Origin: Nitrosomonas sp. Is79A3
GTDB lineage: Bacteria > Pseudomonadota > Gammaproteobacteria > Burkholderiales > Nitrosomonadaceae
Reading direction: 5' to 3'
NCBI RefSeq assembly: GCF_000219585.1
Contig: NC_015731.1
Location: 1,302,001 to 1,366,000 of the forward strand
DNA length: 64,000 nt
Shown: positions 50,459 to 59,326 of the stretch, one piece after another
How the letters are laid out: every line of letters starts with the position of its first letter
How positions within the stretch are numbered: position 1 is the stretch's first letter
Notes under the pieces: generated by a model
The model's database searches: none
What the model was told of the DNA's origin: nothing
The model's input: the letters and a program-made list of their open reading frames with translations, nothing else
Translations under genes and position numbers: made by a program

Positions 50459-51268
50459 TTAAGGAACTATCCGGTTGTTCAGAATCTCTTTGCTTGAGTT
50501 ATTCCAGATAACGTCGGTCAGGTTGGAGTAACGGGTGATAATTTGTGCTGCGATACCACCTGAAAACAAGCCTGCCCAGCCCAGAATCACAAAGCCCCAG
50601 TGCAATGGCGCACTGAACAGTTCTTCCATGAACCAGAATGCATGACCCCATTCGTTCAATCCTACGTTAGGCAGAATCATCAATGGGCCTGCAATTGCCA
50701 TAACCAGCGGGAATGATGTGCCGCGGCTATACAGTGGCAAACGGGTCATCGCGTACAGGTATGAGGCTATGCCACATACGATGTACATCGGGAATGAGCC
50801 GTAAAACACCACTACGTGACTTGGCGTGAAGCTAGTGTCACGAATAATCACTTGGTGCCACGATGCATCTTGTTCGGTGAAGAAGCTTCCGCCCCAGTAA
50901 ACACCAAACAAATACACACCCAGCCACATCATCCAGTAGAAATAACGTTTGATCTCTAACTTTGGATCCAGGTTGTCCAGTTGTTCTTTCGTGTCACGGG
51001 TCTTCAGGATCCAGCCCCAGGTGATCAAAGCAAATAAAGGCATCAGGGTCATGTGTACGCGCCACAGTCCCATCCACACTTTGTCAAATTCCGGTTCCAT
51101 CGAGTCCATGCCGTGTGAATATGCAAATGTCCTTTGATACCAGATCCAAAATATCGCCACCAATAACATGGTGAGCATTCCTATCTTGTAGTACTTTGAG
51201 TCGTACCACAGCGACATGTCATAGTTAGCGCTCGAACTTGCGCCCGTTGTGCCATAAGTTGTTGCCAT
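50459..51268 (-). CDS. amoC: Ammonia monooxygenase subunit C (lone copy)
   Basis: The product has about 269 residues, full length. The core is strongly that of Amo[42 protein letters not shown] and [20 protein letters not shown]. The proposed copper ligands known from PmoC correspond to Asp135, His139 and His152 ([18 protein letters not shown]; numbering from the first ATG), all kept. It is a polytopic inner-membrane protein, part of the enzyme that turns ammonia to hydroxylamine. The second ATG (51268), 5 bases after GGAGG, gives the usual MATT start. No amoA or amoB adjoins. Confidence 0.97.
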
Positions 51269-51374
51269 CATAACCTCCGTTTGTTTAGTTAATGAATACA
51301 GCGTAAAGATTTAGTAAAGTATATTGATTCCTAAAATAATAAGATTGTCTTCATAAACCCTTTTTTACGCAGTT

Positions 51375-51420
51375 AAGAATAGCGTATTGCTATTCTTTTA
51401 CAATGAGTGGATCCACTCAT
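51375..51420 (-). promoter_or_regulatory. Two palindromes upstream of amoC
   Basis: A perfect 18-base palindrome ATGAGTGGATCCACTCAT lies at 51403-51420. Next to it is a hairpin with arms AAGAATAGC / GCTATTCTT (51375-51383, 51389-51397). Both lie about 105-150 bases before amoC and after the end of the response-regulator gene. They could be operator sites or an end-of-gene structure; no T run supports a terminator. Confidence 0.6.
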
Positions 51421-51539
51421 TTTTAAGTGCGATGCACAGAATCTTCGATACGAGAAATGGCTGTGGGCAATCAATGTAAAAGGCGCGAGGGGATTCTAAA
51501 TTTGTTGCAAATGACGAAAAACCGCTGTTTGAAGAAGGA

Positions 51540-56684: not shown

Positions 56685-56792
56685 GCCTATGTTTAGTTCT
56701 GAGGATTATTAGTGTTACTGACAGCTTAATTAAACGTTTTTCAATTTTTCATACGGTATCCTGTTAAAACAAGTTTACAGAACGATGATAAT

Positions 56793-57455
56793 TCATGATT
56801 CTGGAAAGTTGGATTTTACATTCATTTCTTGAGGTGCTTGGTCTGACACCAATTGGCATGCTTCGCACAAGCGGCCTAATTCCAGGATACTGGTCATGCC
56901 GGTTTTGCGTAATATCCGTGCGCGATGAACTTCAATAGTACGGTAACTTATTCCGAGCTGCCGACCAATTTCCTTATTGGAATGGCCTGCTGCAATCAAC
57001 GGCAAGATCTCTAATTCGCGGCTTGTCAGTTCGTTTAAGCGGCTATTTAGCATTTGTATCGCCAGAACTTTTTCTTTCCGCTTAATTGCCTCTTGCAACA
57101 CGGCCTGAATGCGTTTTATTAACAGATTGTTTGAAATAGGCTTCGTTAGATAATCGATTGCCCCAGCTTTCATTACACGAACTGTTTGAGGTATGCTGCC
57201 ATACGCGGTGAGGAAAATAATCGGAAAGTGCATATTGCGACGGTTGAGTTCGGCTTGCAATTCATCGCCACTCATTCCCGGCATGTTAACGTCGAGCAGC
57301 AAGCAGCCGTATTCATTCAGAAAGGAAGCTTGCAGAAAGTGCTCAGCGCTTTCAAAAGTCTGGCAAGTAAGGCCAGCATTTTCAATTACCAGCCTGAGTG
57401 CATCGCGTACCGCGTAATCGTCATCGACAATAAAAACACAAGGTTCAGTACTCAT
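56793..57455 (-). CDS. FixJ-type response regulator
   Basis: The product has 220 residues. REC with acidic residues VDDDYAVRD, Asp in YGCLLLDVNMPGMSGDELQ and Lys in DYLTKPISNN. The C-terminal LuxR HTH is LTSRELEILPLIAAGHSNKEIGRQLGISYRTIEVHRARI. FixJ/TodT family by layout. It overlaps the kinase gene at 57452 by four bases (ATGA), so they are a translationally coupled pair. Confidence 0.93.
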   Translation of the reverse strand: MSTEPCVFIVDDDYAVRDALRLVIENAGLTCQTFESAEHFLQASFLNEYGCLLLDVNMPGMSGDELQAELNRRNMHFPIIFLTAYGSIPQTVRVMKAGAIDYLTKPISNNLLIKRIQAVLQEAIKRKEKVLAIQMLNSRLNELTSRELEILPLIAAGHSNKEIGRQLGISYRTIEVHRARILRKTGMTSILELGRLCEACQLVSDQAPQEMNVKSNFPES

Positions 57456-59326
57456 ATCACAAAGGGTAAAGTAAAGTGGATACTTATGCCAGAAATGGCA
57501 TTTTTCTCAGCCCACATCTTTCCGTTGTGCGCTTCTATCAAGGCACGACTAACAGCGAGACCCATGCCTAAGCCCTCGGATTTGGTGGTGTAGAAGGGTT
57601 GGAAAATGAGTTTAAGTGCGGTGATGTCCTTCACGCCAATTCCACTATCGCATACTGTTACATGTGCCCTAGACGGATCATCGGCGCAGCAACGCGATGT
57701 GATGGTGATGATTCCGGTATTTCTCCCACTTTCTTGCATAGACTCTAAGCCATTTTGCAACAGAATAGTCAGTATCTTTTGGATTTGTAGACCATTGGCC
57801 GCAACCAGCGGCAGACCGTCTGCGAGATCCATTTCGAATTTAAAAGCACCTAAATCTAAATATCCACTCATCTTGATAAAATTGATTGCTTCATGGATCG
57901 AGTTATTGATATCTATCGTTTCGATAACAGTTTCTCCCTTATGCAATACGCTCATCAACTGCTGTATCACTTCCCCGGCTCGAAGTACTTGGAGAGAACA
58001 ATTTTTCAATATATAAGAGAACTTTTGCGAATCTTTGTTGGCGTTTTGCAGCATAGTCAATGCGAGATCCGTATAGGATGAGAGGGCGCTGAGCGGCTGG
58101 TTCAGTTCATGCGCGATAGCGATGGCTGTTTGGCTGGCGACATATAATCGGAACGCTCTTTCCATCGAATCGCGCCGTAAATTCAGCTCCGTTGCCTTCT
58201 TGTAGTCGGTAATGTCCAAATTGATACCCAGCATCCGATAGGGATGATTATTGGGATCGCGCAACAATCCGCCGCGTGAGTGAATCCAGCGGTACGAACC
58301 ATCCTGATGGCGTAAGCGAAATTCTATATCAAAAACTGGTTGACGCTCGCCGATATAGTTTTCAATAGCTGTTAAAACCGATTTCTGGTCGTTGGGATGC
58401 AAACGATTCTTCCATTCTTCCCAGCTGTTGGGTATTTCCTTTTCGTCCATGCCGATTTGCTGCTTCCATTCGGGCGAAAAGTATAATGTGTGTGATATGA
58501 GATCCCAGTCCCAATAGCCTGCCTTTACCTCATCAACTACTAGGGCAAGCTGCGCTTCACTTTTGCGCAGTGCAACTTCCGTGCACAATCGCTCAGAGAC
58601 ATCGCGCAGGATGACAGTGAACGTTTTTTTTTCGTTTGTTTCGCAGCAAGATATGGTGGCTTCTATAGGAAATTTCTCGCCATTAGTACGGAGACCTGTC
58701 ACAGTGTAAAGTTCGGGTGTTTTATGGTTCGTGGAGCCGGTATACCCAGAAGCATGAATATGCATGCAGCAGTGGTCGAAGCGAAAGCGTTCCGGGATAA
58801 AACGTTCAATGAGTTTTCCGATTGCATCATTTGCGGTACAACCGAACATATTTTCCGCTGCTAAATTGAACACCAGAATAGTTTGATCAGCATCGATTGT
58901 GATTATCGCGTCCCTTGCCGACTCAACTATCTCGATATAGCGTTTCTGGCTTTTCCACAGCGCCGTAGTTGACCTGCGATGGAGATTGGTTGTGGCGATG
59001 ATAACAACAGACAAAATGCAAAAGCCCGCGTTTAAAATAAAAGCATCGTAGGGTGCAGAAGCCCAAATCGGAAATAATATAAACGCATTAATCGCAATTA
59101 AAGATAAAGCGATGGCAAAGATTCCAGGATTTCGTCCGAGCCAGAATGTGGACTGGATAATTGCAAAAAAAAATAACATGAATGCTGTGCGCTCGCCAAT
59201 GACCGGAATTTTGAACGTCGCGAGCAAGGCTAAGGTGACTGTCAGCATCGCCAGAGCGTAGTGAAACAAAGGCGGCTGCGTATCGAAATAAAGAAAAGCA
59301 GATTGGGTTATTGATTGCTTGGCCAT
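57452..59326 (-). CDS. FixL-like membrane PAS histidine kinase
   Basis: The product has 624 residues. An N-terminal membrane region with about four helices (30-120) resembles DUF4118. Two PAS domains follow (YIEIVESARDAIITIDADQTIL; QLALVVDEVKAGYWDWDLISHTLYF). HisKA has His in IAIAHELNQPLSALSSYTDLA, the form usual for FixL/DctB kinases. HATPase_c ends KSEGLGMGLAVSRALIEAHNG. A heme-type PAS His cannot be claimed from sequence alone. Confidence 0.9.
   Translation of the reverse strand: MAKQSITQSAFLYFDTQPPLFHYALAMLTVTLALLATFKIPVIGERTAFMLFFFAIIQSTFWLGRNPGIFAIALSLIAINAFILFPIWASAPYDAFILNAGFCILSVVIIATTNLHRRSTTALWKSQKRYIEIVESARDAIITIDADQTILVFNLAAENMFGCTANDAIGKLIERFIPERFRFDHCCMHIHASGYTGSTNHKTPELYTVTGLRTNGEKFPIEATISCCETNEKKTFTVILRDVSERLCTEVALRKSEAQLALVVDEVKAGYWDWDLISHTLYFSPEWKQQIGMDEKEIPNSWEEWKNRLHPNDQKSVLTAIENYIGERQPVFDIEFRLRHQDGSYRWIHSRGGLLRDPNNHPYRMLGINLDITDYKKATELNLRRDSMERAFRLYVASQTAIAIAHELNQPLSALSSYTDLALTMLQNANKDSQKFSYILKNCSLQVLRAGEVIQQLMSVLHKGETVIETIDINNSIHEAINFIKMSGYLDLGAFKFEMDLADGLPLVAANGLQIQKILTILLQNGLESMQESGRNTGIITITSRCCADDPSRAHVTVCDSGIGVKDITALKLIFQPFYTTKSEGLGMGLAVSRALIEAHNGKMWAEKNAISGISIHFTLPFVI

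Follow-up and report, generated by a model that had tools for sequence, protein, structure and literature searches.

The monocistronic amoC3 of Nitrosomonas europaea is reportedly linked to sigma-E. This copy (NE1411) has been described as a stress and starvation gene and is proposed to stabilise ammonia monooxygenase, AMO, during stress or recovery (PMC4940428, PMC5960693). Proteins of the PmoD/AmoE type near a lone pmoC or amoC have already been noted (PMC6189053), strain PY1 carries a singleton amoC followed by amoE (PMC10472526), and N. ureae is listed with amoCE and strain Is79 with amoC only (PMC4940428, Table 1). In Methylococcus capsulatus, a two-component system, MmoS/MmoQ, adjoins the soluble methane monooxygenase operon (PMC7994243, PMC9668731). 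Here we describe an amoC-amoE pair in a 64,000-nucleotide stretch of Nitrosomonas sp. Is79A3 (NC_015731.1, positions 1,302,001 to 1,366,000; hereafter the window), preceded by the genes for a sensor kinase and a response regulator and by a 20-bp palindrome. We propose, at a probability of about 0.72, that the kinase and regulator form a dedicated two-component switch activating the amoC-amoE promoter.

Like amoC3 of N. europaea, the window amoC lies outside the amoCAB operons, but unlike AmoC3 of that divergent type it is nearly identical to the three operon copies (1-2 differences in 810 bases). The genome's second single amoC departs from the operon copies at 9-10 bases, indicating that the window amoC has been homogenised with the operons; that amo genes evolve in concert is already on record (PMC6053082). 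A divergent lone amoC in another genome, G079 (about 70% identity, assumed to be of the amoC3 type; genomes, contigs and loci are given by our G, C and L handles), has no kinase/regulator pair, palindrome or amoE alongside. Compared as listed gene pairs, the amoCE of N. ureae and the PY1 pair represent the same two-gene unit as in the window; regulators and a palindrome go unmentioned in what PMC4940428 gives for the former and PMC10472526 for the latter, and the term two-component has 0 occurrences in PMC10472526. The window AmoE paralogue shares the Cx7MxHxnC motif and C-terminal anchor with the PmoD/AmoE copper proteins of PMC6189053, and differs from them in that this predicted copper protein is linked to a putative dedicated switch. 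As in the case of MmoS/MmoQ, a PAS sensor kinase system stands beside a monooxygenase locus, but the enzyme is unrelated and the His and Arg flavin contacts of MmoS are not kept in the window kinase. The amoCE pair and both kinds of component were thus already known; in the open-licence literature searched, we found no description of the switch, of a two-component system or operator for such pairs, or of a dedicated two-component regulator for any AMO gene in betaproteobacterial ammonia oxidizers.

The kinase/regulator pair and the amoC-amoE genes

The features of the locus, in order of position, are as follows.

49788-50342, minus strand: amoE paralogue (PmoD/AmoE family), 184 aa; CuA motif Cx7MxHxnC and PmoD homology
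50459-51271, minus strand: amoC; open reading frame (ORF) and Pfam AmoC (PF04896)
51376-51381, minus strand: putative -10-like TATTCT; promoter alignment
51398-51403, minus strand: putative -35-like TTGTAA, overlapping the downstream end of the palindrome; promoter alignment
51402-51421, no strand assigned: 20-bp perfect palindrome AATGAGTGGATCCACTCATT, predicted operator of the regulator; spacer alignment and genome scans
51540-52214, minus strand: response regulator, 224 aa, receiver and LuxR/NarL-type helix-turn-helix (HTH); Pfam
52224-54131, minus strand: soluble histidine kinase with multiple PAS domains, 635 aa, leading gene of the conserved pair; Pfam PAS, HisKA and HATPase_c

The window AmoC matches PF04896 over its full length (429 bits, positions 4-244 of 245) and keeps the copper-ligand residues D-x3-H-x12-H and N-x3-H-x13-H in its translation, as would be expected of a functional copy. 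The second of these motifs we take to be the CuD site. The first matches the residues that PMC7584546 gives as CuC ligands. The genome holds five amoC copies: three belong to amoCAB operons, two of which include amoED, and two stand outside any operon. The Is79 paper reports the same tally of operons, amoED-bearing operons and single amoC genes (PMC3764937). As judged by gene order, the window amoC is most likely Nit79A3_1233 of PMC4940428, Table 1.

An earlier sequence-only reading of this DNA had placed amoC, without amoA or amoB, at the end of a run of five minus-strand two-component genes. The gene order and strand hold, the ORFs being where that reading put them with Pfam domains in agreement, and the copper ligands, which it also reported, are present as given above; the spacer between regulator and amoC, given there as 271 bases, measures 268 bp (51272-51539). 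Neither amoA nor amoB was found adjoining amoC among the window ORFs. The gene is, however, not lone as had been stated, since an amoE paralogue, unremarked before, lies 116 bp downstream on the same strand. This 184-aa ORF gave no match in the Pfam search, but is 47% identical to the stretch holding the operon amoE (G000:C1:508609-509148) and matches the solved PmoD structure (PDB 6CPD, E=1e-8). Its C-x7-M-x-H is part of the CuA motif Cx7MxHxnC of PMC6189053, and the motif is present in 15/15 of the orthologues listed. Because homology and motif both assign the ORF to the PmoD/AmoE family, the locus represents an amoC-amoE pair. With a membrane-like stretch near the C terminus (hydropathy 2.08 at residue 155), the product is predicted to be a membrane-anchored periplasmic CuA-type protein.

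The regulator gene starts 9 bp after the kinase gene. The two adjacent genes have the composition of a two-component system, HisKA and HATPase_c in the kinase and receiver and GerE HTH in the regulator, and the receiver Asp54 is invariant among 15 aligned regulators. Adjacency and shared presence suggest that the two proteins are phosphotransfer partners. The distribution was determined in 85 Nitrosomonas genomes and in 40 more that represent the family's three other genera, with cut-offs of E<=1e-45 for the regulator and E<=1e-100 for the kinase. A regulator orthologue is present in 37 of the 85 (67-100% identity; 67-89% in the 36 others), below which come one 57% match and then matches of <=42%; it is present in 0/40 genomes of the other genera. 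Kinase matches were also found in 37/85, both genes being present in 36 genomes, and in G020 the kinase beside the regulator is cut by the contig end. The kinase is about 505, 635 or 750 aa long, depending on how many PAS units its N-terminal part holds. In a tree built from the RlmE and FtsH proteins of 83 genomes (84 minus one with short sequence), the regulator requires 16 changes, at least 11 of them forced by starred branches, a count that incomplete assemblies inflate.

The 36 other regulator loci were fetched and compared with the window genes, several of the contigs being short. In 30 of the 37 genomes amoC lies 3' of the regulator on the same strand. The two are apart in five (G037, G059, G020, G073 and G074), and in two the contig is too short after the regulator (G045, where it runs into a transposase-like ORF, and G076). 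A paralogous kinase/regulator pair of 50-57% identity was observed at L102 (G067:C1:2705000-2720000) and at L309 from an uncultured Nitrosomonadales genome, with neither amoC nor the palindrome found near it.

No membrane-like stretch was detected in the kinase, its highest 19-residue hydropathy being 1.33 as against 2.53 in the FixL-like protein encoded farther upstream. The closest solved structure to its third PAS domain is that of MmoS (3EWK, E=2e-17), and this domain is also similar to LOV domains, although the LOV cysteine is, as we take it, absent. A flavin-binding redox PAS of the MmoS/Aer type is not supported as the sensor input: among the MmoS flavin contacts Asn, His and Arg (PMC9668731), Asn is kept and the positions of His and Arg differ.

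The palindrome at amoC and a second site at ftsH

Alignment of 29 regulator-amoC spacers revealed one strongly conserved block, the 20-bp palindrome followed by a GCTATTCTTAA-like sequence. Together with G064 and G059, the palindrome is present in 31/31 amoC promoters located without using the site, and two more promoters (G074 and G073) were found via the palindrome itself, with an amoC start downstream in each. The strict pattern is matched by 31 of the 33 sites, those of G064 and G073 having one mismatch each. Symmetry is full in 19, including two changed-but-compensated forms, AATGAATGGATCCATTCATT and AATGAGGGGATCCCCTCATT, and amounts to 6-9 of 10 in the others. A TA..CT hexamer is located at +31..+36 from the palindrome centre in 31/33, and one base further in G048 and G051. 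The transcription start is predicted near 51369, which would put the palindrome centre about 42 bp upstream, overlapping the -35-like element, close to the -41.5 of the class II layout.

The strict-pattern scan gave exactly one site in each of 32/85 genomes and 0/85 in the backward control, which rules out a chance palindrome. Except for one site inside coding sequence (G080), all of these are at amoC. Under the strict pattern, none of the 48 regulator-less genomes shows a site at amoC, with mismatches tolerated solely in genomes that carry the regulator. In the genome studied here, one site matches exactly and a second lies within three mismatches; its amoCAB operons and its other single amoC give no match under five mismatches. 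When one mismatch was allowed, each of the 37 genomes with the regulator gave at least one site, mostly one to three, against 0-2 in the backward control. Among the recurring one-mismatch sites, the five loci examined all lie inside coding sequence and were rejected as further targets: a 458-aa gene in G081, G083 and G036, which we take to resemble purB, and another gene in G020 and G074, presumably oxidase-like. Of 33 regulators, the recognition-helix residue is V in 24, M in 3, T in 3, F in 1 and unread in 2. The T form goes with ATGAATGG, but each variant belongs to one or a few lineages and was not used as evidence.

The palindrome follows amoC rather than the regulator. In G059, G073 and G074 it stays at amoC though the kinase/regulator pair is on another contig, and in G081 and G083 it remains there with two genes between regulator and amoC. 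Because amoC follows the regulator in 30/37 genomes and the palindrome is present in 31/31 promoters, we infer that the nearest kinase/regulator pair controls amoC, and consider this well supported.

The three-mismatch site of this genome is located between rlmE and ftsH and is conserved in that spacer, as examined in 17 spacers at first and then in all 84 genomes with rlmE. A site within two mismatches is present in 24/37 genomes with the regulator and in 4/47 without, counted regardless of relatedness, where base shuffles give a chance expectation of about 0.05 of 37. A TA...T hexamer is found at +32..+37 from the site in 28/28, one base off the amoC spacing. Two genomes without the regulator have a weaker ftsH site than their sisters, with 4 mismatches in G026 and 7 in G022. 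It is probable that ftsH is a second target of the regulator in one clade, including this genome.

The proposed switch and its alternatives

In the proposed switch, the phosphorylated regulator would bind the palindrome as a dimer and, overlapping the -35 element, activate a weak sigma-70-type promoter by class II activation. With amoC and amoE presumably cotranscribed as a two-gene unit, the output would be an extra AmoC nearly identical to the operon product and a CuA-type AmoE, without AmoA or AmoB. In one clade the regulator would also act on ftsH.

The fate of amoC without the regulator was compared at the same locus. Ahead of this amoE, amoC is intact in 18/18 genomes with the regulator in which the whole gene is visible (G059 and G076 included), as against 1/8 genomes without it having enough upstream sequence, a count that leaves out G001, G011, G012 and G084 (contig edges) and G017 (no upstream). 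Within these eight, G022, G026 and G080 retain amoC remnants, G028, G032, G043 and G082 (C33) have none, and G033 has an intact gene. The shared loss of regulator and amoC is only partial. The remnants stand upstream of an intact amoE paralogue (L159 of G026, L161 of G022 and L162 of G080), indicating that, once the pair is lost, amoE can survive longer than amoC.

Several observations weigh against the activating switch. In G033 an intact amoC-amoE of this lineage stands without either regulator or palindrome, and the amoC ends visible at contig edges look intact in G001, G011, G012 and G084, which have no regulator; if these four are intact, the contrast of 18/18 with 1/8 weakens. The Fisher values for the regulator contrasts ignore the relatedness of the genomes. 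Palindrome-less amoCE pairs also occur in G018, G035, G082 (C68) and G049. Four regulator genomes, G020, G037, G045 and G076, showed no palindrome site at amoC, but no contig found for them holds this amoC promoter, and the complete amoC seen in G020 belongs to an operon. The consensus promoter scan does not list the amoC promoter or its -35-like element, it is the position of the site alone that favours activation over repression, and the palindrome is compatible with an RNA hairpin. As to the pair itself, G052, counted as without regulator, carries part of a kinase at the edge of a contig, and the kinase of G053, where the order is kinase-regulator-amoC-amoE, has an internal TAG. The ftsH site is kept in four genomes without the regulator (G082, G084, G017 and G031) and missing in 13/37 with it.

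In the amoE tree, the G033 gene falls in the same lineage as that of G066; its amoC-amoE pair (L156, G033:C45:85000-101000) adjoins a reductase-like ORF. A second amoC-amoE type without palindrome was observed at L144 (G035:C2:4000-18000, 6845-8311), on a separate 78.6-kb contig that is possibly a plasmid, and a stretch of G018 (L155, G018:C29) is similar to it. An ORF near the pair in G035 and G018 resembles, as we take it, a tyrosine recombinase, and amoCE may be carried by a mobile element. The palindrome-less amoCE of G082 (L157, G082:C68) lies beside a broken amoE copy and ORFs that are presumably transposase-like, and that of G049 (L158, G049:C127) beside what we take to be a divergent LysR-type regulator.

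Of the other explanations, the one that survives best, unlikely as we judge it, is that the regulator, bound to the palindrome, acts as a repressor of amoC-amoE, or as both repressor and activator, with release under the inducing signal. Repressors also use positions abutting the -35 element, as the palindrome does here, and loss of a repressor would allow the intact pair of G033; the weakness of the -35-like element and the decay or absence of amoC in 7/8 visible genomes without the regulator nevertheless fit better with the loss of an activator.

It is more improbable still that the palindrome is the site of another protein or an RNA element, such as a hairpin ending the regulator transcript, with the pair a mere neighbour having other targets. 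Many factors recognise palindromes, a GATC loop on an 8-bp stem could form here, and neighbours can persist by descent. An intrinsic terminator is not supported, however, as there is no T-run 3' of the palindrome on the transcribed strand and the terminator scan lists none. Nor does another factor agree with the near-fixed spacing to the -10-like hexamer and the similar spacing at ftsH, with the lack of strict sites at amoC outside regulator genomes, or with the palindrome staying at amoC when the regulator is elsewhere.

Upstream of the pair, outside the conserved module, are the other three two-component genes.

54288-56684, minus strand: hybrid kinase; ORF and Pfam
56793-57455, minus strand: FixJ-like protein; ORF and Pfam
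57452-59326, minus strand: FixL-like protein; ORF and Pfam

That all five genes form one sensory island for amoC is highly improbable: they sit side by side on a single strand both here and in G037, but as a conserved unit the island is rejected, since G037 (L067) is the only one of the 36 fetched loci where the FixL, FixJ and hybrid kinase genes reappear ahead of the pair, with none in the 7.8 kb visible in the close relative G045 and none in the remaining loci, several on short contigs. The sequence-only reading, by which the adjacent regulators control amoC, had proposed a comparison of gene neighbourhoods and would be given up if the five were not conserved beside amoC in relatives; three of them are not and two are, leaving its claim of control standing for the nearest pair and not for the island. 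An ORF at 59700-60665, just upstream of the FixL-like gene, is taken by us to be an IS5-like transposase, and may be linked to the non-conservation of that part.

A possible role in AMO maintenance

Since the activating switch would add only AmoC and AmoE, possibly with the membrane protease FtsH, its output suggests that a single subunit is replaced or stabilised, and not that whole AMO is made. By analogy with the photosystem II repair cycle, we tentatively consider, as a rather unlikely extension, an AMO repair regulon in which the two-component system detects failing ammonia oxidation and induces AmoC, AmoE and FtsH together. Fresh copper-bearing AmoC would then be supplied, AmoE might assist in its loading or reduction, and FtsH would clear away the damaged one. 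An increase in amoE in starvation recovery has been cited from Berube and Stahl (PMC7308568). Against a simple starvation role, no proteome-level starvation response was observed after 24 h in three species (PMC5960693), and the singleton amoC of N. europaea rose 1.9-fold under oxygen limitation, not significantly (PMC6967387).

If true, a role in AMO repair would bear on how nitrification recovers from starvation, inhibitors or a shortage of copper. A sensor, a regulator, a 20-bp site and two candidate targets make the purpose of the extra amoC copies testable, and a spare amoC-amoE behind its own apparent sensor-regulator switch in many Nitrosomonas offers a lead on how the ammonia-oxidizing enzyme is controlled.

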